A stretch of 64,000 bases of DNA. Source: Chiridota heheva. Lineage: Eukaryota > Echinodermata > Holothuroidea > Apodida > Chiridotidae. The notes beneath the pieces were generated by a model. The model was given only the letters and a program-made list of their open reading frames with translations, was not told where the DNA came from and did no database searches. This document shows, piece after piece, positions 24,801-51,489 of this stretch; positions within the stretch are counted from its first letter, which is position 1; every line of letters starts with the position of its first letter. A program made the translations under genes and the position numbers. Location of the stretch: NCBI GenBank assembly GCA_020152595.1, contig JAIGNY010004486.1, positions 1,266,001 through 1,330,000 of the forward strand, given 5' to 3'.

Positions 24801-25571
24801 CACAAAATTAGGAGACCCTCAAACAAGTTAAATAAACACGCTCAAGTTTTGTTATAATTTGTTTTTGTATAACTTTTTCATGGAAAGTTTCTTTTTTATT
24901 TATCACCATTGGTACGTTAGTATACAAAGATGAGAAGTTTAGTGACACCTTCAAAGTATTTTTTAAGGTAAATTATCGTTTAAAAAAAAAAAAAAAATCG
25001 CCATTTTCTTTCTTAAGTGCACGAAATTAGGTTTCCCCATGCTGCTAGTGCTATGGTGGCTCACTAGAATTAGGAACGCCTGTGCTCCACAGTACGTGCC
25101 ATTGTACTAGTTTCACAACACTGCTGCAACACAGAAACAAATATGGCGTCATGGTTTGTAAACAAAACAAAATTGCAACAAACAGATAGTACTCACTCAT
25201 CTCCATCAGGGCATATCCCGGTGGTGTCATCATACTTGGTGCAGTACACATCGGGACTGTAATTAAATGTTCCACCACGTTTCCGTATGGGTCTTCGTCT
25301 CCGTTGGTTTAGAAAATGCCAGTGAAAACATGTAAAAGGTCTGTGGTTCGGACATTTGTGTTGTAGGAAATCCTGACACTGCTGTGTACGAAACTCTTTC
25401 AGGTACCTTTCGGGAAAATATAAATTAAAAGCTAATTTCATTGTGTCTCCACTAGAATTACCTACCAAAATACGTAAAAATTATTGCATGAACTTACGTG
25501 TAATGAAATGGCTTTTCAGGTTGTGTAGTTATTCCAGTTAAGGCCGAATTTCGCTGCTGTTCCGAAGGCAT
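75..25571 (-). CDS. unk: Unkempt homologue (CCCH zinc-finger RNA-binding protein), 5' part of gene; exons join 25571..25498, 25406..25197, 15761..15427, 210..75
   Basis: Unkempt proteins are cytoplasmic CCCH zinc-finger proteins that bind mRNA and repress translation during neuronal development; this role is family knowledge. The four exons give the first 251 residues plus two bases, all in phase (ends 2, 2, 1, 2). Visible CCCH fingers are C35-C43-C51-H55, C80-C90-C96-H100, C120-C130-C137-H141 and C220-C227-C233-H237. Diagnostic stretches are [60 protein letters not shown] and [20 protein letters not shown]. Family members have six CCCH fingers and a C-terminal RING; the last two fingers and the RING lie beyond the left edge. 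The start ATG at 25571-25569 begins a short N-terminus ending QPEKPFHYT, as in vertebrate UNK. Introns 2 and 3 are 9.4 and 15.2 kb and full of minisatellites. Identification is strong; the 3' end is missing. Confidence 0.93.
211..1248. other. unk intron 3, left part, before the first array
   Basis: AT-rich intron sequence with only short accidental open frames. No exon with flanking splice sites or recognisable protein was seen. Confidence 0.6.
1249..1990. repeat. Near-perfect 19-bp minisatellite, about 39 copies
   Basis: The unit ttaatgttgtccatggctg repeats without visible substitutions for about 740 bases inside unk intron 3. Each unit contains an NcoI-type CCATGG palindrome. Such uniformity implies recent expansion or active homogenisation, or an assembled consensus. 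Confidence 0.98.
1991..5589. other. unk intron 3 sequence without recognised genes
   Basis: AT-rich sequence. The short open frames have no family resemblance. It contains a GTA/ATT microsatellite near 4450 and a poly-G tract at 5229-5241. Confidence 0.6.
4441..4538. repeat. Trinucleotide microsatellite (TAG)n then (ATT)n
   Basis: About 70 bases of TAG repeats with a few TGG interruptions run directly into a short ATT tract. Confidence 0.95.
5598..7928. mobile_element. Older hAT-like non-autonomous element, split by a later insertion of the same family
   Basis: The left end (CAGCTTGGGCGATATATCG near 5599) and right end (AATATCGCCAAGCTTA to 7928) are inverted copies of one terminus. The flanks 5590-5597 (ATTGTCCC) and 7929-7936 (TTAGTCCC) match at 6 of 8 bases, consistent with an old 8-bp target duplication. 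Sequence on both sides of the inner element resembles the inner element's own interior. No transposase frame was seen. Confidence 0.65.
5945..7128. mobile_element. hAT-like non-autonomous element with exact 8-bp target duplication, nested
   Basis: The termini are TAAGCTTGGGTGATA (5945) and TATCGCCCAAGCTTA (ending 7128), with identical CTATGGAC flanks at 5937-5944 and 7129-7136. An 8-bp duplication is typical of the hAT superfamily. The 1184-base interior is AT-rich, with subterminal ATCGATATT motifs and no transposase. Confidence 0.75.
8056..8307 (+). pseudogene. Unrecognised open frame, possible exon relic on the strand opposite unk
   Basis: The frame reads through [14 protein letters not shown] and on to [18 protein letters not shown], with ordinary amino-acid composition unlike the repeat-derived frames around it. 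A GTGATG after the penultimate residue could be a donor. I do not firmly recognise the family. It may belong with the coding relic at 14823-15099 on the same strand. It lies inside unk intron 3, so it would be a nested gene or a transposon-borne fragment. Confidence 0.3.
8495..8665. repeat. 25-bp minisatellite, about 7 copies
   Basis: The unit contains actgcaggtacagtatgtac. It is rich in GTAC self-complementary pieces. All overlapping open frames here are products of the repeat. Confidence 0.95.
8949..12549. repeat. 43-bp minisatellite array, about 84 copies, with higher-order structure
   Basis: The unit includes ctagtagtatgttaggaata then aatctatag followed by ccgggccctt or actggcccttt. Variant types (ccgggccc versus actggccc, tgttagg versus tattagg, aataaa versus agtaaa) recur in blocks, so units expanded as multimers. 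The 3.6-kb array is inside unk intron 3. Confidence 0.98.
12550..13342. other. unk intron 3 between arrays
   Basis: AT-rich sequence with no recognised gene or element. Confidence 0.55.
13343..14455. repeat. 101-bp tandem repeat, about 11 copies
   Basis: Each unit runs from gtgtatatagtattaatata through gaagaactgttct to gacctcgtggctaccccagg. Copies differ by scattered substitutions and a small deletion near 13531. The right edge breaks into unique sequence after gctgccccaggg. Confidence 0.95.
14823..15099 (+). pseudogene. Frameshifted coding relic with [13 protein letters not shown] motif
   Basis: The plus strand reads [18 protein letters not shown] through LLEAAQQKG, then after a one- or two-base frame change near 14917 continues [36 protein letters not shown], and stops near 15099. 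The pattern (helix, acidic-LVA-x-E-x-x-YH-x-x-C, aromatic) resembles a multicopy domain I recall from repetitive invertebrate and transposon-associated proteins; this recollection is not verified. It lies antisense within unk intron 3, just upstream of exon 3. The frameshift and isolated position suggest a decayed gene or mobile-element fragment. Confidence 0.45.
15427..15761 (-). CDS. unk: unk coding exon 3 (end of CCCH finger 2, finger 3, low-complexity linker)
   Basis: The acceptor TTTCCAG ends at 15762 and the donor GTAAGT occupies 15426-15421. Residues 96-206 complete finger 2 (C96, H100) and carry finger 3 (C120, C130, C137, H141), followed by [16 protein letters not shown] Pro/Thr/Gly/Ser-rich linker follows and ends IDDPVWN. 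The linker is where family members diverge. The exon ends in phase 1. Confidence 0.93.
16090..17893. repeat. 45-bp minisatellite, about 40 copies
   Basis: The unit contains ctctattactatccaaggga, caaccttgatgatcaaac and agttg. Because 45 is a multiple of three, several frames on both strands stay open for 100-310 codons (for example [11 protein letters not shown] or [15 protein letters not shown]). A disturbed patch with shortened units lies at about 17100-17280. It is in unk intron 2; coding use is unlikely. Confidence 0.97.
17894..19908. other. unk intron 2 without recognised genes
   Basis: AT-rich. A small possible foldback element lies around 18822-18975: a gcacacagggttggaaaa-type end and its approximate reverse complement. 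Nothing else was recognised. Confidence 0.5.
20239..21308. mobile_element. piggyBac-like non-autonomous element with TTAA flanks
   Basis: The termini CCCTTACTCTACCA and TGGTAGAGTAAGGG are exact 14-base inverted repeats. They are flanked by TTAA at 20235-20238 and 21309-21312, the target duplication of piggyBac transposons. The 1070-base interior has no transposase, and includes a tRNA-like promoter segment. Short relatives occur at 48415-48514 and 48660. Confidence 0.8.
20648..20725 (-). ncRNA. tRNA-derived SINE-like head with A and B boxes
   Basis: On the minus strand an A-box-like TGGTGCAGGGG is followed about 40 bases later by a B box GGGTTCGAGTCTC (plus 20664-20676). The acceptor and anticodon stems do not pair well, so this is not an intact tRNA. 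It is best read as a tRNA-derived SINE or pol III relic inside the piggyBac-like element. Confidence 0.42.
21671..21845. repeat. (AT)n, (TATG)n and (CATA)n compound microsatellite
   Basis: AT repeats surround a TATG run that switches to its complement CATA, making a large perfect inverted repeat able to form a cruciform. Confidence 0.97.
21846..25196. other. unk intron 2, right part
   Basis: AT-rich intron sequence. I found no convincing exon, RNA gene or bounded element. Confidence 0.55.
25197..25406 (-). CDS. unk: unk coding exon 2 (CCCH fingers 1 and most of 2)
   Basis: The acceptor CGAAAG precedes the exon. Its first base completes Thr25, restoring HYT-YLKEF as in the family. It encodes residues 26-94 with finger 1 (C35, C43, C51, H55) and the first two cysteines of finger 2 (C80, C90). 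The donor GTGAGT occupies 25196-25191 and leaves a split Glu95 codon. The acceptor is weak, with only a short pyrimidine tract, but the frame and homology are exact. Confidence 0.93.
25498..25571 (-). CDS. unk: unk coding exon 1 (start codon)
   Basis: Encodes residues 1-24 plus two bases of Thr25. The ATG is at 25571-25569. The donor GTAAGT occupies 25497-25492 on the minus strand. The peptide starts MPSEQQRNS and ends QPEKPFHY, matching the end of the N-terminal segment of other unkempt proteins. Intron 1 is only 91 bases (25407-25497). Confidence 0.88.
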
Positions 25572-33677: not shown

Positions 33678-33892
33678 ATGCCTCCTTCCCGCTATAATTC
33701 TACAGAAAGCCAGCCAGAAAATGTTAGTCGCAATACTAGGCATGAAACCTTTAATGGTTTTGAGGCCGAGTTTGATCCCTGTTTAGATAAGAAGTACGTC
33801 TGCCCTGTTTGTTTGGCTGCTTTGAGAAACCCTGTGCAGACGAAGTGTGGACATCGATTCTGTAAGGCTTGTATCCTTCGAGCATGTAACGG
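33678..33892 (+). CDS. TRAF6: TRAF6-like exon 1 (N-terminus and most of RING)
   Basis: ATG 33678 is the first in-frame AUG and begins [11 protein letters not shown]. The reading frame continues upstream to about 33552 without an AUG, so the upstream part is read as 5' UTR. It encodes [20 protein letters not shown] and CKAC, that is RING ligands C42-C65. The donor GTAAGC at 33893 leaves a split Gly72 codon. Confidence 0.9.
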
Positions 33893-36800
33893 GTAAGCGA
33901 CTTTGTTTTAACTTCTGAAGTAATTATTTTCATATCTTGAGGCCTAGATAAACAACACAAGTAAATTTCAAGTTGATGCATCAAACCACCCGCTTATGTT
34001 AACAACAAAACAACCTCGTTGATGGGGTGGGGGAGGGGCACCCAAAATGGCAGCAAAAGAGGTGTTTAGGAAAATCGGAATGTGTTAATCAAGTTTATGA
34101 AATTGTATTATGATTGATATATTATTTCAGAATCCATGCCCTGCAGAAATTTGAGATCTTAATCTAAAGTTAGATAATGTGGAACGACGCAGGAACGTTT
34201 TGAAAGTAGGAGGGGTAGGGTGTGAAGGGGGGGGGGATTTGTTTTGGTGTGGAGTCCAGGAACGGGGCAAAACTGCCTAAGATGACTTGCAAGGGAAATT
34301 GAGAAAGTATTATAATCATATTAAAAAAAGGAAAATTTGGTAATATTTTAGGGAATTTTGAGTAAAATATGGCAACATTTTCTGATAATATAGTAAAATT
34401 TCCCAAAATATCAACAAAACTGCCTGAAAATGAAGAAATTTTTACTAAAAGTGAAAAAAATGTTTGGAAAATTATAGAAAAATGCCCGGAAATGAAGGAA
34501 ATTTCCTGAAATTTGAAGTATTTCCCGAAAATTGAGTATTTCCCGAAAATTGAAGAGTGTTTTCCGAAAATTAAAGTGTTTCCCGAAAATTAAAGAGCTT
34601 TTCCCGAAAATTAAAGAGCTTTTTCCGAAAATTAAAGAGCTTTTCCCGAAAATTGAAGAGCGTTTCATGAAAATTGAAGAGCGGTTCCCGAAAATTGAAG
34701 AGCGGTTCCCGAAAATTGAAGAGCGTTTCCCGAAAATTGAAGAGCGGTTCCCGAAAATTGAAGAGCGGTTCCCGAAAATTGAAGAGCGTTTCCCGGAAAT
34801 TGAAGAGCGTTTCCCGGAAATTGAAGAGCGTTTCCCGGAAATTGAAGAGCGTTTCCCGGAAATTGAAGAGCGTTTCCCGGAAATTGAAGAGCGTTTCCCG
34901 GAAATTGAAGAGCGTTTCCCGGAAATTGAAGAGCGTTTCGGAAATTGAAGAGCGTTTCGGAAAAGCGTTTCGGAAATTGAAGAGCGTTTCCGGAAATTGA
35001 AGAAGGCGTTTTGAAGAGCGTTTCCGGAAATTGAGCGTTTCCCGGAAATTGAAGAGCGTTTCCCGGAAATTGAAGAGCGTTTCCCGGAAATTGAAGAGCG
35101 TTTCCCGGAAATTGAAGAGCGTTTTCCGGAAATTGAAGAGCGTTTTCCGGAAATTGAAGAGCGTTTTCCGGAAATTGAAGAGCGTTTTCCGGAAATTGAA
35201 GAGCGTTTTCCGAAATTGAAGAGCGTTTTCCGGAAATTGAAGAGCGTTTTCCGAAAATTGAAGAGCGTTTTCCGAAAATTGAAGAGCGTTTTCCGAAAAT
35301 TGAAGAGCGTTTTCCGAAAATTGAAGAGCGTTTTCCGAAAATTGAAGAGCGTTTTCCGAAAATTGAAGAGCCCGAAAATTGAAGAGCGTTTTCCGAAAAT
35401 TGAAGAGCGTTTTCCGAAAATTGAAAGCGTTTTCCGAAAATTGAAGAGCGTTTTCCGAAAATTGAAGAGCGTTTCAGGAAAATTGAAGAGCGTTTCAGGA
35501 AAATTGAAGCGCATTTTCCGAAAATTGAAGCGTATTTTCCGAAAATTCAAGAGTGTTTCCCGAAAATTCAAGAGTGTTTCCCGAAAATTGAAGAGTATTT
35601 CTCGAAAATTAAAGAGTATTTCCTGTATTTTCTGACATGGAATTAAAGACTTTTTCGTGGTTCAGATCCTCATTAAAAATCCTAAATGAAAAAGTTCCAT
35701 CACTGGAGTTTCTGCCACTGATAACATTGGGTACAGTGGGCGGGATTTGCATACCCAGTGGGGGAGGGGGGGGACAAATTCAAAGTGGAGGGGGCAAAAC
35801 ACAAAGCTATGCCAAGATAAAAAAAAAAAATCAAGTTCTGTAAAAAGGTGAGTGGTGGGTGCCCCCCAAATCAAATTCTGTAAAAAGGTGAGGGGTGCCC
35901 CCTCAAATCCCACCTATGTCGGGTACCATGGACAAGTCTGTTCATAATTAAGGTCTATTGGTTGAAGCATTGATTCAACTCGGTAAAAAGTAGATGGAAA
36001 TATCCAAAGGATGGAAATATTGCTGCCTGAGATAATCTTCGACACATTTATTCTTTTAAATTCTATGATATGAAATAAGGATTTTGTCTCCTTATTGTTT
36101 TTCACTCCTGCAAATCTTTGTTTATTTGATTTGATTTGATTTGATTTGAGATATTATGGCTTTAAAACCATTGAATGTCAGAAGAAGTAAAACATTTAGA
36201 AGTAACTTTTTTCTAGCATAATTTGTTATTAGACCTGAATTATAAATGGTCAATTCTTAGAATATGGCTTTCACAAATTTCTTCAAATTTCAAAATATTT
36301 TAAAACTGTATAAGAAAAACTGCTCTATACATGCCTATAACTGCTCTATGCGTACCTATAACTGCTCTATGCGTACCTATACTGTATGTAGTTTCTGTTT
36401 TTTGCTGACCCCTGATCAAACTTTTCTGACGATATTCCAATTTGTATTTTTGTAATGTTTGCTAATAGTGAAAAATGTTGAACAGCAAGTTTCTTAAAAA
36501 AAACCTTGTAATAATTGTAATAAACAGGCACCAAACATGGTCAGAGACCCCACCCACTAGTAGACCAGTGCAAGTAATTGAAACAGTAATTGTACTGGTT
36601 AATGTTGAGACATTCATGTGCATCCTGTTTTTCTTTCCACTTTCTTGATTGGGACAAAAACACTATTCTCCTGATAGGACAGGTTCTCAGGGTCACAGGC
36701 ATGATTTGGAGTGAAAGGGGGCATACCCCAAAAGTTTTCATATTTATATATTTTGTATGGTGATTTTTCAAATTGTACCTGACTGATTCTATGATTTGGA

Positions 36801-39800
36801 CCCACCTCCTCCTGCCCCCCCCCTCCCCTCCCCCCCCCTCCCATACAAACTTTTGGTGGGCAAATCCAACCCATATTCAGGGGCCAGGGCACATACAAGA
36901 ACAAGGGTTCAAAGAATCCCAAGAACCAAGTTACATTTTCAAAAGCCTACATATCATATCTATTGTACAGATCCCGTCAGCAAGGCAAGTGCTCTATCGA
37001 CAAACTCATTTCATATCTATTGCACAGATCCTGTCGGCAAGGCAAGTGCCCTATTGACAAATTCATTTCATATCTATTGTACAGATCCCGTCAGCAAGGC
37101 AAGTGCCCTATTGACAAACTGACGTTTGATGTGAGAACCGAGGTAAGCTCAAGTCCTTCATATTTTCCTACCTGGACAGTCGTGGTATAGTTTCCTACCT
37201 GGACAGTCGTTGTGTATTTTCCTACCTGGACAGTCGTGGTATAGTTTCCTACCTGGACAGTCGTTGTGTATTTTCCTACCTGGACAGTCGTGGTATAGTT
37301 TCCTACCTGGACAGTCGTTGTGTATTTTCCTACCTGGACAGTGGTTGTGTATTTTCCTACCTGGACAGTGGTTGTGTAGTTCTTAGTATCTTCTGTGCAG
37401 AGCATTTTTCCTCCCAATACTTTAGCTTTTTGTGTAGGAAGATTTAGAAGAAAATCTCAGGCAGGGAAATGTTTCTGCCAGCTTTGTGGTTCGTCAGAAA
37501 TAATATAATTAATGTTTATTATGAGGAAATAGTTTACAGAGGTTATCTGACAATTGCCATCTTCATACCATAGCCTTTTTAAGACATCTGGATTGGGGAG
37601 GGGGCTGCGCTGGGGGGTGACATGCAGAAGGGATATATCATCTCCACACAATTTATAAAGTCGGCGGCATAGGAAGATATTTGACATAGGGGAGTGGGGG
37701 GGGGGGGCAAGTTTTTGTCTCAAACCTTGAAAGTATACTTAGAGTATAAGTCTCTGTCTAAAAACTTATTTTTAAAGGGGGTTGTAAAATTATTGAAAAT
37801 TTTGGAAATTTTCAAAGAATTAAAAAAATTAGAAACTTCCAAAAATTGAAAATTTCCAGGTGATTAAAGCAGATTTCACAAAAAATGAAGGAAATTTCCC
37901 GAAAATGAAGCAGATTTCTTGCAAAAGGAAGGAATTTCTCCAAAAATTGAAGAAAAAAACTTCCCAAAAATGTACAAATTTCCTAATATTTTAAAGTAGA
38001 TTTCACGAAATGAAGGAATATTGAAGAAATTTTTTTTTCTAATGGAAGGAAATGTTCCCAAAATGAAAACAAAATTTCCTAAAAATGAAGGAATTTTCCT
38101 GAAAATTGAGAAAACTTCCAAAAAATTGAATATCTCCAGAGAATGAAGGAAATTTTCACAGACTTCAAGCAGATTTTACGAAATTGAAGGAAACTACCCA
38201 AAAAAAGAAAGCAACTTAAATTCTCAAAAAAGGAAACTCTGAATATTGAATAAAAATCTTCCAAAAAATTGAAGAAAATGACAAATTTCTTGAGAATTAA
38301 AAGTAAATTTCACGAAAATGAATGAAAATTGAAGAATTTTAAAGAAAATTTCCCTAAAAGGAAGGGAATTTCCCAAAAATGAAAGCAAAGGTCCAAAAAG
38401 GAAGGAAATTCTTTAGAGAAAAAAAATTAAAGCAAATTTCCCAAAAAGGAAGAAAATTTCCTAAAAATTTGAAGAAAATTGAAGAAAATAAAGCAAATTT
38501 TACAAGATGAAGGAAAATTAAATAAATTTGAGGGAAATTTCCTAAAATGATTTTTTTTTAGAAAATAATGGATTTTTTCTGAAAACTGAACTTCCTGAGT
38601 CTGTGTTGACTAATTGAGTTGATCTTAATTATATCATCTTAGATATGTTTAATTTCAAAGAGATTATTTTGTTAGGGTCAAAAACTCACGACTGGGGGGG
38701 GGGGGGGGGATGGGAAGTGGGGGAATTTTCCCCAATTAGTATGTTAAAAAAGGCTATTTATTCACTGCTTTGTGATGAAATTTGGATCCCATTGTGGATA
38801 GTCTCTTTCCTGTGGTAGTTTATTGACTATACCCTGCAGCCTTTTGTATGATTTCTTGGCAAACTTAATTTCGACCGAATAAAACGGGTTATAATATCGA
38901 CCATATAAAACGGATTATAATTTTGACCATATAAAACGGAATAAATTTTGACCATATAAAACGGGTTATAATTTTGACCATATAAAACTGGTTATAATTT
39001 CGACCATATAAAATGGGTTATAATTTCGACCATATGAAACGGGTTATAACTTTATGGAGAGTTGCATCCTGATTAAATAGCATAATAATTTGTTTTCATT
39101 ACGAAGGTTTTCTGCACAAAATGGTATAAAAAAAGTCTAAATTTGTAATTTCGGTTTCTTTATCACTCATGTCATCACAATCACAAGTTGACATGGACAA
39201 ACATCTGTTCTCTTCCCATCACAAAGCTCACAAAGGTTTTGGTAGCAGCTGTAGGGGATACTTAAAATTAGAGGTATCGTTGTGAGAAGTAGAGTTGGTC
39301 ATGCTTGAGAATGTTGCCTGAAAAAGGGGGATGGGGAGAATTTTTATCTTTTTTTAAGTCGCCAGCAAATTGAAGTCTCTTTCTTTCTTCAGTTGTTTGA
39401 AGATGTAGCCTTTAAGAGAGAGATTCTGTCACTAACGGTTCTCTGTGGCAACAAAGAAGACGGCTGTGTGTGGAATGGAGAGCTGAGAGAGCTGGAGGTA
39501 TTGTTATAATATTGCATATGCATTGTCAATTGTCTTGTAACAGTCAGATCAGTTTTACAGACCAAAATAGTTCTTATTGTATACCAGATGTGCCCATCTA
39601 CTGAAACCCTGTTGAAAAATGGCAGTGTTTAAAAATAAACCTGCTTCATAAAATACAACAGGATTCATCTACATCTGGGGGCACAAGGTTGGAATTGTTT
39701 GCAACTTGTGTCAATCTAAGCACTGATCATAAACTTAGGGGATAAACTTAAAGTGAAAGGGGATTAGTCAGGGGAGGGGAAGCAACTTTCTTAATCTGAA

Positions 39801-42800
39801 ATAGATGGAAATTGGGTAAAATGGACAACAACAAAAAAGGCAGAGAAAGCAGTCAACGGACCGTGAAGAGGAACACAAAACTGGACATCTACTGTATCAC
39901 TTCTTCCTGCAAATAGCCACTTTCCACACAAAAAAGTGAAAAATGGCCAAAACATTTTTGAATTTGAAAATTATATTTGCACAAAACAATTCATAACCCT
40001 ACAAAATTGGGCTTAACACCTGTGCCTAGGTGGGTCTGATTTTCATTTTTGTCTCATAATTTGACGGGTAATATACAGTAAGCTATATTACTCAACATCC
40101 TCAATATAACACATGCAATGTCTGACACTGCCATGGATTGTGCAAAGGTTTCTTTAAGAAAATTATTTGAAATGTTCCAAAAAATGTTCTCCATTGTTTC
40201 GTGTTGTGAAATTTAAGCCCTCCTGTGCTTATTTGAATTGAAAATCAGTGATTTTTTTGTTTGAATTGAAAGTTAGTGCATTATTTGTTTGAATTGAAAA
40301 TCAGTGCATTATTTGTTTGAATTGAAAATCAGTGCATTATTTATTTGAATTGAAAATCAGTGCATTATTTGTTTCTTTCAGGATCATGGGAACCTTTGTT
40401 TGTATGCCATTGAAGTTTGTGCTAATAATGGTTGTGAAAAGAAATTTGTGAGGAAAGACAGTGTATCCCACCAATCAGAATGTTTGCTCAGATTCATGAA
40501 CTGCATGCATTGTCAGGAGCAGGTCATCTTTAAAGATCTGACGGTAAGGGAACAAAGTGACAATTTTGCTGGGGATGGAGGATTTCAAAAAAATCTTCCC
40601 ATGTGGACCCAGCACTGCATGTGCTGGGTACATCATGTATGTGCAGCGTGCTGCCCATTTTTTCCTCACCCCTTGTTTTTTCCCTTAAATGTAACACGAA
40701 GTCGGACGTAATCCTTATTTCATATGATAGAAATATAAATAACTAATTTTCTGATTAAATTTCATACCTCCCAAAGCAATCCTGATTTTTTGTAATTATT
40801 AAGAACTTTAATGCTAACTATGTTAGCTGCCATTTTGATTTGAAAACATGCAGGAAATGATGTCATTAGACCAACACAGCATGTTGCAATGCTTTGTATA
40901 TTTTTATAATTTATCTCAAGTTTTTAAGCTTATGAAAATTGTTTTTCTTTTGTTAAGGGTCAAGGACATATTTTGTGTACATATGAAATTATCAAAACAT
41001 GCTGTTGAAAGTGTGTGTCACACCATATTGGAATAAAAGATTCAAAACAAATTGATTAAAAAACACATTATAATCATGCACATGATTTCAGCACAGAATT
41101 AAAATGGCAGCCTTGATGTGTTGACTTCAAACATATAAACAAGAAAGCAATCCATGGAGCGGCTGATCTCATCACCTTAAGGTTATACATAGTGGGGGAA
41201 ATAGTTAACATAGCTCTTGTGACTTTTGGCACAAAAATGTACCAAATAGTACATAATTACCCCCTAAAATCATGTATTTGACCTTGGACCCTTGACCCTA
41301 ATTATTGAAACAACCTAAAAATGTTCACATTTATTGTACCCTACTGTATGACGTCATTCATGCTCACGTACCATTCCATAACTATAGGGGAAAAAGGTGA
41401 GAAGTGGTCAATAGTTCTTTGACCTTTTGACCCCGGAGTATACGAGACACAATTTCAAGTATTAAGGCATGGGTGTAGCCAGCCTCTTGGAGTGGGGAGG
41501 GGGGGGGGGAAGGTCGCCAAGCGAAATATTTGTACCTTTTAGCATATTTTCTTGACCTTTTTACCATTGCCATTTTACTTCTTCTTTTTTTTTTTTTGGG
41601 GGGGGGAGGTCACAGACACTGTCAACCCCCCTCTTGGCTACACCCATGCAAGGTATAATGGTACAACAGAGTTGGTATAGATAGGTCTTGTACTTTTTTA
41701 GCTTAAAATGCTGCAAAATTTTGCAACTTCTTTGACCTTTTGACCTCACAATTATTTTTAATTTTTGTTAGAATGTTAAACCTTAATGTAAAGGTAACCA
41801 AGTAATTCCTTTAAAAGATACAACGATCACCAAAAATTTGACCAGTGACCTTTGTATCCCAAAACCTTGGAGACATAATTACCCCCTAAAATTGCTTATT
41901 TGACCTTTGACCCTAACCACCAAAAACAACATCTGATTTTTTTTGCTATTTATCTTACTCTACTATATGACATGCTTCGCCCGTGCTCAGATCACTCTTA
42001 CCATTCCAAAAATATGGGGGAAAATAGTTAAAGGGGATCAATAGCTCTTTGACCTTTTGACCCCAGACATTATGGGACACAAGTTCATGTACCACAGTAT
42101 CATGATAAAAACATAGGATTGGTATAGGTCTTGCCCTTTCAGAATTTAAAGTGGCACAAAAATGTACAAATTAGTACATAATTACCTCCTAAAATCACAT
42201 ATTTGACCTCTGACCTTGACCTTAATCACTAAAACAACTGAATTTGTTTTACATTTATCATACTCTACTGTATGATACCATTCATGTAGGGAAAATGTTG
42301 AACAGTGGTCAATAGCTCTTTGACCTTCAGTTTTGACCCCTACGGGACCAAGGTATCATGGTACAACATAGGGTTGATATAGGTCTTGTACTTTTTGAGT
42401 TTAAAATGCCGTAAGATTTTGCATAAAAACATTTTTTTAACCTTTGACGCATGACTATTGACCTTTTGACCTCCAAAACCGTGTCCCATTTGACCCTGTG
42501 ACCTTTCAACTTTGTATCGCAAAACATTGGAGACAAAATTTCCGGGCCAGGGGTAAATTCGTCCACCAATTTTGGTTCATGTGTGTATTACAATTTTTGA
42601 GTTATAAGCGACACAAAATAAATTGTTGCATATGCACACATGCACACCGCAAACACACGGACAGATGTAAAAATTACCAAATTTTGCCCCGTTCCCCAAA
42701 CTTATGACCCCTAATATAAGGTCACCATATGAACCACCTGGTGGGCCCCACCAGCCCCCTATTATAGTGTAATTTCATGTAATGTAGGAGGCATAGGCAG

Positions 42801-44628
42801 TTATTTGCCTATACAGCAGTGACTACAACATCTCATCCCCACAATGTATATATGGGTGATGAGATAATAACTTGAGACAGAAATAAGATTTTGACTTGCT
42901 CTTTCTGGCAGTTGGTTAATATGGGGGATGCACACAGGGTGCAGGCCCCCCCCTCCCCCTCCCCTTTCAGACCACATTTACTCCCACACTAGTCTCCTTT
43001 TGCTAAAAGTTTCCATTTTTATTGATATCTCCGTAAGTCTAAAGCTAGAGTTGTGAGAAGAATAACGTCTTTGCAACCACATGCACAACAGAACAAAGGT
43101 TAGTCAGATCTTATGGGCATGTCGCCCCTTTCGGAAAATCATGGCTCCATACCTGAATATTGTTATCTTTTATCTTATGAAATAATGATTGTATCAGACT
43201 TATAAGTCCCCTCCCCCCCGCTAATCCCAAACCACACTATTGAGCCTGCACATTGGCTTACAGATATATTTGATTGATAAGTGAAAGTGATATGGCATTA
43301 GTTTGCAGTTCATCGTATAAATGCCGGCAGCTTTCATGATAGACAAGCTTCACATTTTTGGGTCATAAACTAGGATAACTTGGTAACCTGGTTACATTTG
43401 TTGTCTATTACAGCAACACCACCTTAACATCTGTAAGCGCTACCCGGTGGATTGCAGCCAATGTGGCAAAACAGGGTTACTGAGAGAGCAGGTGAATAAG
43501 ACTATTTATTACATTAAAGCATTAGTTCAGGGGTCCAGGAAGTCTCATCTTATATGAAAGAAGACTTCAAAAGAAACCAAATGGTGAAGGAAGTATTTCA
43601 AAATCTTATTCTGTTAAGGAGATATCAAGTTTAAAGGTTGGTATAATTTGTGTAGAAACGACTGAAATCAGACTAGTTGTGACATCACAGCCTCAGATTC
43701 TTCAAAATCTTTATGTATTCTGTCATATTTTGTCCTTTGGTTTTTTTACTTAAAAACCAAGGGATATGTCACAAAAATAGTAAAACAGCATCTTTTAGGG
43801 TAATTAAAATTTACTACCTGAAGAAAGTTTGAGGAAAATTAATTCAAATACATAAAAAGTTAAACAAAATTTTCTTAATACATTAACAATTGTTAAGAAT
43901 GTGAGAAGGGAAGATGGCACTTGGATTAATGGAATAAGGTATTGAAGTAGTTTCTTCACCATTTTGTTTCTATTGAAATCTTCTTTCATATCAGATGGAT
44001 TTGCTTGACCACTCAACTAATCCTTTAATAATGTATGTGTTGATTACATGTAGTTTTAAGTGGGGGAAGTGGCATAGCTGGGGCCGTGGGGTGATTGGGG
44101 CCGGCTATGGTATATAGATATAATGAAATATTTTTGTCACAGGCCAACTCATCATGGAGGAGGCTTCCCCCTGCCCCACTCAGTAGGGGTCTAAGGAAGA
44201 CCCAAAAATCGGGATTTTCTTAAAAGGGCACTAATGTTCATAATGGGACACATAGAATTTTCCAATCCCCCTCCCCTTCCCCTCACGTTTTTCTTTAGTA
44301 GCAAGCAAAGTGGATCAATGATGGACCAATATTTGTTGATGTAATTACACTAGCATGTAGGAACTGCAAGTTTGTGTAGAGGATTCTTATAGTCCTACAC
44401 TGAAAGAAGCTTCATTTGTGAATATATATATATATATATAAATATTTTATTTTTTTTGGAGGAGGGGGGCAGGGTTCCCCTTTCCCCTCCCCCTCACGGT
44501 TTTCTTTAGTAGCAAGCAAAGTGGATCAATGATGGACCAATATTTGTTGATGTAATCACACTAGCATGTAGGAACTGCAAGTTTGTGTGAGGATTCTTAT
44601 AGTCCTACACTAAAAGAAGCCTCATTAG

Positions 44629-44666
<38 letters not shown>

Positions 44667-47356
44667 TTTTTGGGTGGGGGTAGTGGGGTGCCTTACCTGG
44701 CTCAGAAATTTGGAAGAAGAAAAAATGGCCCAAAACTTGTTGATTGACTCTTTTCTCTTTGATCTCATGTGGTCATGATTGGGTAATACATATTATTTTG
44801 GGGAAATTTAGATCTATGCCCCGTAAAAGTCGAGCTCATACTATTTAGAATATGTGCAATTTTGTTTTGAAGTTTAACTGTGTTGTCTTCATTTTTTTCA
44901 GTTATCAAGCCATCTTGATGCCACTGATGGAGATTGCACAGAAATCATTGTTCCATGCGTCTTCCAGGGAATAGGGTGCAATGAACTGGTGATTATCTTG
45001 AGGCCTTTCTTTACATATACCAGTCACTTTATTTGGCCCACCACTTTTTCAGAAATTGTGGTACTGGTGGGCCAAAAATTCATTTTTGTAATTTTTCACC
45101 CTCGGAAGCTTTGAAAAGCAAAACAAGGTTCACTAGCAATTTCTATATGATTTGGAGGAAAGAGATTAATTAACCTGTCTGAGTTAGACGATTGTCAGCT
45201 TTTTCAACCAATCACAGCATGAATTTGCCTAGCAACAAAATCTGCATAACTAAGTGGGGCAAACATCCTACGCGGTACTGATGCAGTACAACTAGTTAGC
45301 TGCACGCACTCATGTAGTCAATGCAAGTTACACACGAGATGGAGTGACTGCAAATTGGTGAACAAAAATTGCACTTACAAAGCTGCGTGCTTTGTAAATT
45401 TGATTGCTGTTACCCAGAATACATAGCAAACTGAATTTTGTTTATCCCTTGTCCTAAAAACTCATAAAGATCCGGACAAGTGCAATAAATTGATCAAAAC
45501 TTGCGAAAAACCTCGCCAACATCTAAATATCAATGCATTGGTAATGCACGATTGGTTTGTTTGCTCCACCTAATTACCGCATTGCTATGGTGGGTGTGGC
45601 TTATTTCGTAACTCGGAGACATTAAATCCAAGGGGTACGTTTATCCATTTGTCATTATTATGTTATTAAAATAAAACAAATTGTCTCTCCCAGAAGAACA
45701 CCCTCCTTCTCCAAAACACCCGGTGGCGCCAAAGTTTTTACTTGCTTTTCAGTCTTAATTTGTAGGGAGGGGGGAATTTTGAGTGTCTGGCGGGCACGCA
45801 CCACCACCAAAAATGTTTGGCAATGGCCATTCATGATACCTGGGACTATGCCCAACATTTGGCTTCAAAGGTATGAAAAAATACATTACAAAATTATCAC
45901 TATGATTGCTGGTTTTACAGGTGCTCAGAAGAAACATGGCTGTTCACAAAGAGGAAGCGCAGGTCTTCACTTCCATCTAATGTTCACATACATCACCAAA
46001 TTGAATGGCCTACTGACTGGACAGGAAGCGGTACTTCGTGAAACTCAAGAGACTTGCAACCAGCTCATTTGTGAGCAAGCTGATCTGGCAAGGTATGATA
46101 AGCTATACACTTTAACAATAGATCCCTTCCTAGATACTTATTGGCATGGTCTGTCTGAGAATAGGGGCAATGGAGGAAAATATACCCCAAAAGAATTGCT
46201 AATGATCAGAGAATACGAACTAAAATTCTCATAGCCACCATCAGCCACGCTCCATGAGAGTTCAGAGATATTTCAGTTTTAAAAGAAATGCTGGGGCCAC
46301 ATTGAAGGCAATGATGAAGAGATGATTGCTTAAATTTGAAAGTGGAATCCAATGTACAGGGTGAAGGGGGTATTGGTGGGTGGGGTATGGGTGGGGGTGA
46401 TTTCAATCTGAAATGTTGAGACCTTTTAGCTACTAGATTTGTTTTAATTTGTGGATACTTCAAAGGAGAAATCAGATATTTTTGTATTGGGTACGGTACG
46501 CTAGTTAATATTTATTTTATCACATTTGTGATTTCTGTGTTGGTTGGCTGTTTATTGAAGGGACTATCAGTACTTGGTGGTGTGGATTACATGATTATTC
46601 CACAAACATTTTTAAGATCTGACAAATTACATTTTCATGAAAAGTACTGCTGGAGGAAAGAACATTTCCCCATAATTTAAGAAAGGGGAGGGTGGGGAGG
46701 GGGTGGATTTCCTGTCGACTTAGATCACTTTTGGTAGGAAATAAGAAAATTGGTTCATTTTCTGTTATTTCAGACAACTGATGGAGAAGAATGAGCTGCT
46801 TAGCATTCAAGGAGATCAAATTGCAGAACTTAAAGCGACAAGTTACACAGGGGAGCTACACTGGAAGGTAGCTTTGCCAGCCCAAAATTACAGCACTCCC
46901 ATCTTAAGTCCAGTGTTTTACACCAGTTGTCCAGGGTACAAATTTCAGCTGTGTCTTGAGCTTCGAGGTCATGTGGCCCGGAATGAAACTCATGTCTCGT
47001 TGTATGTGATGCTTTGCCATGGCGACCATGATGAACAAGTGTTTTTTCCATTCAACGGATCATGCAAAGTGACGCTTTTCAACCAGTCCCACCGCGGTGG
47101 CCACTCCTCCAGTGCAAGTGAAGAGAACGAGAACAGGAATCACGTTACCTCTATCGGGTGTTTCAACATTCCACGCGTGGAAACTGCCAGCAGTCAGAAT
47201 CAAAAAAGAGGGCGCCTGCGCTACATGAAGACTGATGATCTCACAAAGGGAAAATATTGTCATAATGGGGTGTTGTACTTCAAGGTGGAAATTTCTAACA
47301 GTGGTCTGCAAGCAACCTGGAAGCCGATGAGTGTGTGCAACTCTCACTCTTTGTGA
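33678..47356 (+). CDS. TRAF6: TRAF6-like RING/TRAF-zinc-finger/MATH adaptor E3 ligase, complete; exons 33678..33892, 37085..37142, 39393..39497, 40382..40543, 43414..43491, 44902..44988, 45929..46092, 46774..47356
   Basis: TRAF6 is a cytoplasmic adaptor and K63-type ubiquitin ligase linking Toll/IL-1 and TNF-family receptors to NF-kB and MAP kinases (family knowledge). The eight exons total 1449 coding bases, 483 residues, against about 520 in vertebrates. RING ligands are C42, C45, C57, H59, C62, C65, C79 and D82; the final Cys-x2-Asp is typical of TRAF6. Five TRAF zinc fingers follow: C109/C116/H128/C132, C139/C144/H156/C160, C167/C170/H183/C187, C194/C197/H210/C218 and C225/C232/H249 or H251. 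A short helical linker (about 252-312) precedes a MATH domain (about 316-472; [24 protein letters not shown]). All junctions are GT-AG and in phase. Exon 2 carries an unusual triplicated acceptor region. A phylogeny is needed to separate TRAF6 from other invertebrate TRAFs. Confidence 0.92.
34400..35635. repeat. 21-bp minisatellite in TRAF6-like intron 1, about 50 copies
   Basis: The unit gaagagcgtttcccgaaaatt varies as cccgaaaatt, cccggaaatt, ttccggaaatt and ttccgaaaatt in successive blocks, then fades into degenerate flanks. The 7-codon period opens frames on both strands, including a 386-codon one, all repeat-derived. Confidence 0.96.
35636..36952. other. TRAF6-like intron 1, middle
   Basis: No exon seen. 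It holds a short TTGAT repeat (36123-36150), a triplicated ACTGCTCTATRCRTRCCTAT motif near 36320-36370, and a C-rich tract at 36812-36842. Confidence 0.5.
36953..37126. repeat. Three tandem 57-bp copies spanning intron end and exon start
   Basis: Each copy contains TCATATCTATTGYACAG followed by ATCCYGTCRGCAAGGCAAGT and TGCYCTATYGACAAA. Spacing between acceptors is exactly 57 bases twice (36971, 37028, 37085). Only the third copy continues into the unique exon end and donor. Confidence 0.95.
36971..37084 (+). CDS. TRAF6: Possible alternative 5' extensions of TRAF6-like exon 2 (two further in-frame copies)
   Basis: Two more copies of the exon start, each preceded by a TATTGYACAG acceptor, begin at 36971 and 37028. 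The 57-base unit is 19 codons, with no stop from 36971 through 37142. Use of the upstream acceptors would add 38 or 19 residues containing GKCSIDK and GKCPIDK, each with its own Cys-x2-Asp pair. Whether they are spliced is unknown. Confidence 0.4.
37085..37142 (+). CDS. TRAF6: TRAF6-like exon 2 (RING end; constitutive choice among three tandem acceptors)
   Basis: A 58-base exon is needed because joining exon 1 to exon 3 directly gives a stop. The acceptor CAG ends at 37084; the first base completes Gly72. It encodes [19 protein letters not shown] and ends at donor GTAAGC (37143), in phase 0. C79 and D82 supply the last RING ligands, matching the family pattern KCPxD. Equivalent acceptors 57 and 114 bases upstream (exon starts 37028 and 36971) would extend the exon in frame. 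Confidence 0.85.
37164..37379. repeat. 27-bp minisatellite beginning 21 bases after the exon 2 donor, 8 copies
   Basis: Units TTTCCTACCTGGACAGTCGT plus GGTATAG or TGTGTAT alternate, giving a 54-bp dimeric period. Each unit contains a pyrimidine-rich acceptor-like CTACCTGGACAG. Confidence 0.95.
37380..38874. other. TRAF6-like intron 2 simple-sequence region
   Basis: From about 37785 to 38590 the plus strand is a degenerate GAAATTTCC/GAAAATTGAAG mixture like the 34.5-kb array. G-runs occur at 37694-37708 and 38694-38709. No exon seen. Confidence 0.55.
38875..39055. repeat. 26-bp minisatellite, about 7 copies
   Basis: The unit is ccatataaaacgggttataa plus tttcga with minor changes, in TRAF6-like intron 2. 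Confidence 0.93.
39393..39497 (+). CDS. TRAF6: TRAF6-like exon 3 (start of zinc finger 1)
   Basis: The acceptor TTTCTTTCTTCAG ends at 39392; 35 whole codons begin [19 protein letters not shown]109 and C116 belong to zinc finger 1. Donor GTATTG. The pattern FxxREIxSLxVxC is characteristic of TRAF6. Confidence 0.93.
40259..40371. repeat. 28-bp minisatellite abutting the exon 4 acceptor, about 4-5 copies
   Basis: Unit tttgaattgaaaatcagtgc plus attatttg. It ends at GTTTCTTTCAG, so the repeat may supply branch-point sequence for exon 4. Confidence 0.93.
40382..40543 (+). CDS. TRAF6: TRAF6-like exon 4 (zinc fingers 1-3)
   Basis: The acceptor TTTCTTTCAG ends at 40381; 54 codons end at donor GTAAGG. 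It carries H128/C132 of finger 1, finger 2 (C139, C144, H156, C160) and C167/C170 of finger 3. The 28-bp minisatellite just upstream (40259-40371) abuts the pyrimidine tract of this acceptor. Confidence 0.92.
41230..42530. repeat. Diverged direct repeats rich in TGACCT half-sites, about three copies
   Basis: Blocks starting near 41230, 41860 and 42150 share the order AAAATGTACAAA, TAATTACCCCCTAAAAT, TTGACCTTTGACCCT, CTCTACTGTATGA, GGGGAAAA, GGTCAATAGCTCTTTGACC. TGACCTTTGACC, a perfect DR1-type site, is at 41901-41912; DR2-type TGACCTTTTGACC recurs near 41410, 41733, 42050 and 42462. Confidence 0.8.
41467..41649. mobile_element. Small MITE-like element with 15-base inverted termini
   Basis: GCATGGGTGTAGCCA (41467-41481) has a perfect inverted copy at 41635-41649. 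The 183-base element contains G-rich tracts and sits between two of the TGACC-rich repeat blocks. The immediate flanks are both AAG, possibly a 3-bp duplication. Confidence 0.55.
43414..43491 (+). CDS. TRAF6: TRAF6-like exon 5 (zinc fingers 3-4)
   Basis: The acceptor TATTACAG ends at 43413; 26 whole codons start [18 protein letters not shown] and end LLREQ. Residues H183 and C187 complete finger 3; C194 and C197 begin finger 4. Donor GTGAAT. Confidence 0.9.
43516..44030. mobile_element. Foldback MITE with long inverted arms in TRAF6-like intron 5
   Basis: The left arm (TTAAAGCATTAGTTCAGGGG onward) and the reverse complement of the right arm (ending CTCAACTAATCCTTTAA) align for well over 100 bases, including ATGAAAGAAGACTTC and AAATGGTGAAG. 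A related copy is at 58622. Confidence 0.65.
44275..44665. repeat. Tandem duplication of about 211 bases ending in AT tracts
   Basis: The segment TTTCTTTAGTAGCAAGCAAA through CCTACACTGAAAGAAGC and an AT run occurs twice, offset by about 211 bases, with few differences. Confidence 0.9.
44902..44988 (+). CDS. TRAF6: TRAF6-like exon 6 (zinc fingers 4-5)
   Basis: The acceptor ATTTTTTTCAG ends at 44901; 29 whole codons read [12 protein letters not shown] and then [16 protein letters not shown]210 and C218 finish finger 4; C225 and C232 begin finger 5. Donor GTGATT. Confidence 0.9.
45034..45076. repeat. 12-bp perfect hairpin
   Basis: TTTGGCCCACCA and TGGTGGGCCAAA are perfect inverted copies separated by a short loop, just after exon 6. 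It may be a terminus of an unidentified element. Confidence 0.5.
45929..46092 (+). CDS. TRAF6: TRAF6-like exon 7 (end of zinc finger 5 and linker)
   Basis: The acceptor GTGCTCAG ending at 45928 is chosen because the AG eight bases upstream (ending 45920) would lead to a stop after 19 codons. Residues [16 protein letters not shown] supply H249/H251, then a polar helical linker ends ADLA plus a split Arg290. Donor GTATGA. The true acceptor is slightly uncertain because two AGs compete. Confidence 0.78.
46774..47356 (+). CDS. TRAF6: TRAF6-like exon 8 (MATH/TRAF-C domain, stop)
   Basis: The acceptor GTTATTTCAG ends at 46773. The first base completes Arg290, then [20 protein letters not shown], a short heptad-like helix. 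The MATH domain follows, from about W320 to residue 472, with the segments [37 protein letters not shown] and [10 protein letters not shown]. The TGA stop is at 47354-47356. The domain mediates trimerisation and receptor-tail binding in the family. Confidence 0.95.
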
Positions 47357-48706: not shown

Positions 48707-50525
48707 CTTCCTCATCCCCTCCCCTCCCCCCTTAACCCGCCCTCAACTCCCCTCAACCCACCCTCTATTCCCCCTCAAACCCCCCTCCCTCAACCCCCCT
48801 AAAAAACCCCTCACCCCCCAATATATCAATTCTAACTACGCCACTGACTTGAACATTTATAGAAACTTAATTTACCAGTGCATTTTTTACGATTGTATGA
48901 TTTGCTCCAACTTAATACACAATGCATAAAATCAGACGGATGGTGGAAAATGTTTAAATCTGGGTAGAAGGGCGCAGGATTTAAGGGGCACTTTCCGACT
49001 AACATTTTGAATTGCATACGACAGCATACTGCTTTCACAGGTCAGAAATTTACTGCATGGTGTTGGCCATGATGTCAATGATATAACAAGATACTTGTGG
49101 CAAAATAAAATTTGGGAGGAAAAGGACCTACATCTACGAAACTGGGGAAATTTATAGGTCCTTAGTCAATATAATGTGTATATATGTACAGTGTATATGT
49201 CTGTATGATTCACGCACGGTATGGGACTCGTACAAAAAATGTTTCAAGTCGCACGTATCACTCGCGTGTTGTACATGAAGGTAATGCGCACGCGTATTGC
49301 TGCTTACAACATTTCTCAAAAGAACTGCAGCTGGTTGGTTAAGTAACAAAATGGGAAAATTCCCCCAGCAGTTAATTGGTCGACGAGATTCACAATATAT
49401 TGTCTTAAACATTTTATACCTTGCATAGATTGTTTGAATTTCCTTATTGGGTATATGAATTGATTTTTAAGCAAATTCTATTGCAAACTTTTTAAGTCTT
49501 GACAGTCACACTAAAACATCCTCACCCAACCTCCCAACTTTTGCTCTTCCCCTGTTTTCAGTAAGGTTTTTTTTTTTTTTTTAAATCCAGGATCCGCCTT
49601 TGCAACTGTGCAAGGGGCGTAACTTAAGGGAGTGTGGTGGTGTTACAACCCATATTTTTTTTTCATTGAGCAATTCCAATTCTGACCATTTTGTTGGAAA
49701 AAATGGCAGTTTTGAAACAAAATTGTAAGATATTAATCCATATGGTTATACCCTTAATGTTTGTATTCTTTTGCAAAAAGACACTTTTGAATAGGTTCTG
49801 GATAACAATAGATTGTTGTTACTTTCATGGCCGTTGGAGAACCGCCTCCTAGCCCCCTCCCACCCTACGTTGGCCGAAAACCGATCTTATCCGTGCAGAA
49901 ATGTAGAATGTTGGGTGGACTTGTATCCTGGTATATTAGAATATGATAATCTCAGTCTTTGCTTGCAGCTAGAAATCTCCGAATCTTATCCTCCCGACCG
50001 CCGACTCGGCACATGATGCTGACAACACCATAGCCTACTTGAGCACTTAAGTCGTGCAGGATGTATTGTTTTAAATCGGATTACATCTCAATCATGCCTG
50101 AATCGTTATATCGAAATCGTGTCCTGACTCAACATCATGCGCTGACAACATCATACTTGATAGGGCAGAGATTTATAATGTTAGATGTCTGTATGTTCTG
50201 TTTAATTTAAGTGTTAAATCTTAAATCATGCCTGAATCGTCTATATCAGAATTATCTCAACTCGACTCTGCATCATCAGATGATGCTTATTGGCATGGGT
50301 GACACGACCTAATATTCAGATATTTGAGAATGAAGAAAATTCGGGGGAAATGGTCAAAAAATTCGGGGAAAATGTGTAGATTCTTGAAAGAGCTATTCCG
50401 AAAACTTAATCAAACTTCCTGATTTTTCCGAATCGTAGTCTTAAATTAACAGGGTTTTTTTTATATCCGGTTTTAAAATTCCTCGATTTTTGCGAATCGG
50501 GTCATAATGTTTCCCGATTTTTCCA
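48707..50525. other. Intergenic region before the LINE fragment
   Basis: C-rich low complexity at 48714-48820, then AT-rich sequence. A CTGACAACACCATA/TGATGCTGA-like motif repeats around 50005-50290. No gene recognised. Confidence 0.5.
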
Positions 50526-51264
50526 ACTAAATATGGATTGCATAATATCTCACTGCAAGTTGGCACGGTTGTAGTCCCTGGATCTGACCATATCAGGAAC
50601 CTTGGGGCCTATTTTGATAGCAGTTTATCAATGTCTAAACATGTGAATCAGGTGTGCAGCAGTGCCAACTTCCACTTATGGCAGCTGCGTAAGATAAGGC
50701 CTTATCTTACTCATGATGCATGTAAGTGTGCTGTTCAATCACTGGTGATCAGCAGAATTGATTATGCTTCTGGTTTACTGAGTGGTTTGTCAGGTGGCCT
50801 GTTAAACAAACTTCAACTTGTTCAGAATATTGCTGCAAGACTGATCTCTGGCATAGGTATAAGATCTCATATTACTCCTATAATTTCCCATTTGCATTGG
50901 CTCAGAGTACAGTCACGAATTAGGTTTAGGCTTTATGTTCATCTTTTCAAAATTCTACATGGTCTTGCACCAATTTATCTGTCTGAATTAATTCATCTGT
51001 ATGTCCCAGATCCCAGACTTAGGTCTGCCTCTAATGGCCCACTGATAAGGAGACAGTATGGCAGCAAACAAGTAAGTCGTTACAACTTTGCTGCCACTGG
51101 ATCATCTCTTTGGAATGAGCTGCCTGTCCACATCAGATCTGCAAGTGACATCAATTTCAAGAAGCAATTGAAAACACACCTTTTTAACCAATAATGTAAA
51201 GCACTTAGTTTTGTTCTCAATATAAGCGCTATATAAGCATCTACATAATAATAATAATAATAAC
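50526..51264 (+). mobile_element. 5'-truncated L2/CR1-type LINE, reverse-transcriptase C-terminus
   Basis: An open frame to 51194 encodes about 215 residues of the C-terminal part of a non-LTR retrotransposon polyprotein. Signatures are GSDHIRNLGAYFDSSLSM, SRIDYASGLLSGL, LQLVQNIAARLI, SHLHWLRVQSRIRF, FKILHGLAPIYLSELI and a C-terminal LWNELPVHIRSASDINFKKQ. The catalytic part of the RT is missing on the 5' side. The 3' end is a short ATAAGCGCTATATAAGC tail followed by an (ATA)n microsatellite, typical of this LINE group. The frame is uninterrupted, so the insertion is fairly young. It lies within degenerate TTTCCGAATC-type simple sequence. Confidence 0.88.
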
Positions 51265-51489
51265 TCATGATCTTAATTTCTGCTAAGTTTCCGAACCAGA
51301 TGATAGAAATTCCCTATTTTTTTAAGTCATGATATTGAATTTTCCAATTATTTCCGAAATGGTGTGAATTCTTGAAAGAGCTGTTCCGAAAACTCTTATC
51401 AAACTAATCGATTTTAATTTCTGCTGTTTCCCAACCTTACCTATCTTCTTCGTGCCAAGTGGCACATAAGATCTCAACAGAGCAGTCAT

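Follow-up and report, generated by a model that had tools for sequence, protein, structure and literature searches.

A TRAF6-like gene of the holothuroid Chiridota heheva carries three direct copies of a 57-bp segment that spans the end of its first intron and the start of its second exon, and each copy supplies an acceptor from which the reading frame runs on unbroken. We consider it probable that this array is a young, nearly neutral, minisatellite-like expansion over a conserved intron-exon boundary, with the upstream acceptors giving rise to minor or noise products. The analysis concerns a window of 64,000 nucleotides (positions 1266001-1330000 of its contig, in an assembly of 1.10 Gb and 3,744 contigs); all coordinates below are counted from its first letter.

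The gene lies on the + strand at 33678..47356 and is made up of eight coding exons:

33678..33892, + strand: exon 1, from the start codon into the RING, ending in phase 2 at GG|GTAAGC (translation, donor and match to the TRAF6 RING)
37085..37142, + strand: exon 2 in its canonical extent of 58 nt, donor GTAAGC (translation and match to the TRAF6 structure)
39393..39497, + strand: exon 3, the linker helix and the first part of zinc finger 1
40382..40543, + strand: exon 4, zinc fingers
43414..43491, + strand: exon 5, zinc fingers
44902..44988, + strand: exon 6, zinc fingers
45921..46092, + strand: exon 7, with a frame problem
46774..47356, + strand: exon 8, the end of the coiled coil, the MATH domain and the stop codon

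TRAF6-type E3 ligases combine an N-terminal RING, with C3HC3D zinc ligands, and the TRAF zinc fingers that follow it. The encoded protein contains the zf-C3HC4, zf-TRAF and MATH families, all above the Pfam cut-offs, and its RING-zinc-finger part upholds the identity proposed by the first-pass annotation: the best seven of 55 matches to solved structures in the PDB are all TRAF6 (3hcs, E=1.6e-31), and the next match after the TRAF6 entries is TRAF5 (2e-20). With an N-terminal RING and TRAF zinc fingers most like those of TRAF6, the product would thus be an E3 ligase of the TRAF6 type. In the 3hcs alignment the linker retains the KREILSL motif, while RING ligands six and seven stand 13 residues apart, two more than in 3hcs. 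The MATH domain is recognized by PF21355 (63.6 bits); this part is divergent and the frame of exon 7 is disturbed, and here TRAF5 and TRAF2 come first among the PDB matches (from 5.5e-10) with TRAF6 behind them (2.3e-8). In exon 7, an acceptor before 45921 completes a zf-TRAF finger (46.6 bits, to the end of the profile) and meets a stop after 19 codons, while an acceptor 8 nt later, before 45929, gives a frame that is open into the MATH exon and loses the end of the finger (39.8 bits). The frame may truly be broken here, or the cause may be an indel of the assembly or a shift of the acceptor. Elsewhere in the window, reading frames with CCCH-type zinc-finger spacing occur on the - strand (15362-15796 and 25196-25480), which resemble an unkempt (UNK) gene, and the reading frames on both strands at 50508-53483 are presumably remnants of LINE-type reverse-transcriptase genes.

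The array at the start of exon 2 occupies 36950-37120, where TRF reports a period of 57, 3.0 copies, 90% matches and no indels. Its unit joins the final 21 nt of intron 1 to the initial 36 nt of exon 2, and comparison of the copies gives the following units:

36950..37006, + strand: repeat copy 1, exon start 36971, with the ligand pair CSID
37007..37063, + strand: repeat copy 2, exon start 37028, with CPID and four private changes
37064..37120, + strand: repeat copy 3, exon start 37085, with CPID, equal to the three-copy majority at 57/57 positions

Copies 1 and 2 differ at 7 of the 57 positions, copies 1 and 3 at 3, and copies 2 and 3 at 4, and the intron end TATTG[T/C]ACAG sits at an identical offset in all of them. 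These are direct repeat units each holding a 3' intron end and an exon start, that is, a tandem duplication of a splice acceptor. No stop interrupts the frame between 36971 and 37142, and starts at 36971, 37028 and 37085 add 38, 19 and 0 residues, respectively (hereafter the +38, +19 and +0 forms), with the frame kept into exon 3. All three acceptors are in frame, as the unit length of 57 is a multiple of three and the repeated piece of intron holds no stops. In the +0 form, residues 72-94 map to exon 2 (37085..37142) in a protein search of the genome. As a DNA sequence, the triplicated segment has one match in the 1.10-Gb assembly, namely the window itself.

The first-pass annotation had described three 57-bp copies of the intron end and exon 2 start, an open frame that any of the acceptors would preserve, and a last zinc-ligand pair repeated in each copy; TRF and the copy comparison, the translation of all three starts, and the Cys-x2-Asp pairs encoded by every copy (CSID, CPID and CPID in copies 1, 2 and 3) agree with it on these points. 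Its further proposal of three potentially equivalent acceptors, giving 0, 19 or 38 extra residues, likewise fits the sequence. It had, however, placed these residues between the RING and zinc finger 1. Their sizes hold, and their place needs refining: in each form it is the Cys-x2-Asp pair of the first included copy that holds the normal RING spacing, the gap from the previous Cys being 13 in all three. The surplus of the +19 and +38 forms is made up of the repeated RING end and translated intron (ISYLLY/ISYLLH), and is placed before the linker helix.

Several features favour copy 3, with its start at 37085, as the true exon start. The intron is in phase 2 and falls between RING ligands six and seven, the exon starting six codons before ligand seven. 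The same position and phase recur in other TRAF-like loci on different contigs, seen from the donor side in one (L010, 1580-1720) and from the acceptor side in another (L006, 1440-1620), which makes a great age of this RING intron position within the TRAF family probable. In L006, the 181 nt read at the acceptor hold one copy only. The +0 form has 26 residues between the last RING ligand and the first cysteine of zinc finger 1, as against 25 in L006 and 25 in the solved TRAF6 by alignment; counted from the first ligand pair, the distance becomes 45 in the +19 form and 64 in the +38 form. Hence, judged by sequence and alignment, the +0 form alone would keep the spacing of the compared TRAFs (the solved TRAF6 and L006). 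Likewise, 3hcs aligns in one piece with the +0 form (112.7 bits) and in two pieces with the +19 (102.1 bits) and +38 (101.0 bits) forms. Private changes number 3 in copy 1, 4 in copy 2 and 0 in copy 3. Among those in the exon-derived parts of copies 1 and 2, four alter an amino acid and one is silent (five against one if a translatable intron-derived change is counted), and copy 1 has lost the proline of the C-P-x-D motif of the RING, reading C-S-I-D. Copies 1 and 2 thus show no sign of coding constraint, though counts this small would still be compatible with function. The sparing of copy 3 has a chance probability of 0.059-0.088, which is not significant, and is suggestive only. Full yUnAy branch-point-like motifs without an intervening AG number three upstream of 37085, two upstream of 37028 and none upstream of 36971; this is a weak test, given that four of six other tested acceptors of the gene (39393, 40382, 43414 and 45921) also have no full AG-free motif.

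The surroundings are rich in repeats. Tandem arrays with a period of 15 or more, 30 of them after merging, cover 19.7% of the window. Two further arrays found by TRF adjoin exons of the same gene:

37161..37378, + strand: 27-bp tandem array, 8.1 copies, beginning 19 nt past the end of exon 2
40232..40374, + strand: 28-bp tandem array, 5.1 copies, ending 8 nt before the start of exon 4

At 8948-12549, the window also holds an array with a 43-bp unit in 84 copies. For comparison, 20 stretches of 10 kb, each placed at a round coordinate, were taken from contigs that had come up in the analysis; three of the stretches contained N, one of them wholly. Arrays cover 23.2% of the 182.5 readable kb, with a median of 9.5% per stretch; the former figure is lifted by other parts of the contig that holds the window, where arrays make up 70% of four readable 10-kb stretches (40 kb), and on the remaining contigs, with 15 stretches and 142.5 readable kb, coverage is 10.0%. 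At these densities, between 1.4 (other contigs) and 2.8 (window) of the gene's 14 splice sites are expected inside arrays and one is observed, the probability of at least one being 0.77-0.95 from total coverage. This coverage is owed largely to long arrays, and when only arrays of up to 300 bp are counted the expectation falls to 0.29-0.47 sites and the probability to 0.26-0.38, a range that spans the window, all 20 stretches and the 15 others (the five own-contig stretches alone give 0.13). With such a probability per gene, a gene of this kind is therefore ordinary in a genome of thousands of genes. Given a 57-nt unit, 0.59 of random 21-mers from the gene's introns read open (19,130 trials), and with one in three lengths divisible by 3 a unit that is open and preserves the frame would arise with a chance of about 0.2. 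The array itself is beyond chance; its position on a splice site is not clearly so, and the mechanism of its origin is ordinary for this genome.

On the account that we consider probable, a 57-bp stretch spanning the intron 1 end and exon 2 start would have been amplified to three copies by a minisatellite-type process, and we infer that this amplification was nearly neutral. The main mRNA would most likely be spliced to the last acceptor (37085), giving the normal TRAF6 arrangement of RING, linker and zinc finger 1, while the upstream acceptors, being of near-equal sequence, probably yield isoforms longer by 19 or 38 residues, present as minor products or noise and tolerated for keeping the frame. 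Against exclusive use of 37085, the acceptor cores hardly differ among the three copies and first-AG scanning would favour 36971, and substantial use of the upstream acceptors would be compatible with the sequence. Against regarding the upstream copies as a by-product, the Cys and Asp ligands are kept in all three, and the chance of a short array falling on one of the 14 splice sites is just 0.26-0.38 per gene. Pfam RING models accept the +38 form, with 33.5 bits for PF00097 (34.8 for +0) and 32.4 bits for PF15227 (31.7 for +0). In an alternative, 36971 or 37028 is the constitutive acceptor, and the TRAF6 of this species has a RING-zinc finger 1 linker that is 19 or 38 residues longer, the Cys-x2-Asp pair of the first copy completing the RING and the rest forming a loop. 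Such an arrangement draws on the upstream AGs being met first by a scanning spliceosome, on the scores of a RING completed by the proximal copy and on the open frame. We nonetheless hold it to be unlikely, as copy 1 reads C-S-I-D rather than C-P-I-D, the spacing would grow to 45 or 64 residues where 25-26 are found elsewhere, upstream signals are weakest at the acceptor before 36971, and the private changes are confined to copies 1 and 2. An assembly artefact, in which the repeat was collapsed or falsely expanded, seems quite improbable: the frame problem in exon 7 of the same gene makes local base errors conceivable, but simple assembly stutter would not leave 3 to 7 differences per 57 bases between copies, and a single place was found in the assembly. 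That single DNA match, the window itself, also gives no sign of a haplotype duplicate in the assembly. In a protein search of the genome with exons 1-4 as the query (80 candidates scored), at least 32 matches were listed, four of them inside the TRAF6-like gene; no spliced retrocopy, from which the natural junction could be read, was found among the other 28 listed, where matches of more than 70 residues reach at most 35% identity and shorter ones 46%, and no second close TRAF6 relative stands among these matches.

The first-pass annotation had gone on to suggest a built-in tuner of an innate-immune ubiquitin ligase, in which a regulated choice among the three acceptors would set the distance between the RING and zinc finger 1 and hence the ligase activity. 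The exact frame and the retention of the ligand pair in each copy speak for it, as does the functional importance of the TRAF6 linker helix and zinc finger 1 (PMC5702613). This suggestion does not find support in our analysis: the tandem-repeat background can account for the triplication, the translatable private changes of copies 1 and 2 (five amino-acid-changing against one silent) look unconstrained, translated intron makes up part of each insertion, and the +0 form alone keeps the spacing. A regulatory role of acceptor choice is accordingly unlikely to judge from the sequence, and the tuner as proposed very unlikely; 19 or 38 residues between the RING and the helix should loosen the arrangement, making a weaker ligase likelier than a finely tuned one. 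Similarly far-fetched is the idea that the array is a length-variable repeat on a coding acceptor, in which differences in copy number from one individual to another, and the choice of acceptor inside each, would together set the number of RING-end units before zinc finger 1 and produce quantitative variation in innate immune signalling. The birth of an intron by tandem duplication, with AAG|GCAAGT of each copy serving as donor to a later copy's acceptor and 43 or 100 nt being excised, has the least to recommend it, and we give it next to no credence. The motif AGGCAAGT, which we take to be the GC-type donor consensus, does occur three times on the + strand of the window (36983, 37040 and 37097), once per copy and nowhere else; its use would leave a 14-nt mini-exon and shift the frame, and an animal intron of 43 nt would be very short. 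A scan of the 57-bp unit for two donor motifs, AGGCAAGT and GTRAG, yielded no donor that keeps the frame, the GTRAG matches within 36960-37160 (37131 and 37143) both lying after the array. We thus rejected intron gain through a donor and an acceptor supplied by the unit, even with the precedent of a new intron in a potato gene from tandemly duplicated intron-exon structure (PMC4974935).

If the upstream acceptors are used, the gene would offer a natural experiment on how much separation between the RING and zinc finger 1 TRAF6 tolerates before ubiquitin transfer fails. With the minisatellite-like expansion that we favour, it would clearly illustrate that in-frame alternative acceptors can arise by accident where repeats abound in a genome, and would warn against taking preservation of the frame for design.

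Among the papers listed on TRAF6 isoforms and invertebrate TRAF6, no invertebrate TRAF6 of like structure stood out. Among solved structures, the TRAF6 RING-zinc finger region (PDB 3hcs and 5vo0; PMC5702613) is the nearest point of comparison: the RING, KREILSL linker and zinc finger 1 of 3hcs align whole to the +0 form, whereas the 13 residues between RING ligands six and seven are a difference, and with the possible +19 and +38 forms the alignment falls into two pieces. For the DNA arrangement, a close parallel is the potato RdRp gene, where tandem duplication of an intron-exon structure activated a cryptic donor and created a new intron (PMC4974935); that paper attributes the tandem-duplication model to Rogers 1989 and refers to Gao & Lynch 2009 for internal duplications being common. 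There, as here, the duplication copied a branch site, pyrimidine tract, 3' splice site and exon sequence; the potato gene, however, gained an intron, whereas the present array has three copies that offer alternative acceptors only, no frame-keeping donor having been found. A second parallel is the VNTR in intron 18 of human ABCA7, whose units carry a donor and whose longer arrays accompany more skipping of exon 19 (PMC5954066). Both are minisatellites with splice signals in their units near an exon, but the ABCA7 units contain a donor while those described here contain an acceptor and part of a coding exon. By analogy, the triplicated acceptor would seem to be a further instance of these known kinds, tandem intron-exon duplication and the splice-altering minisatellite.
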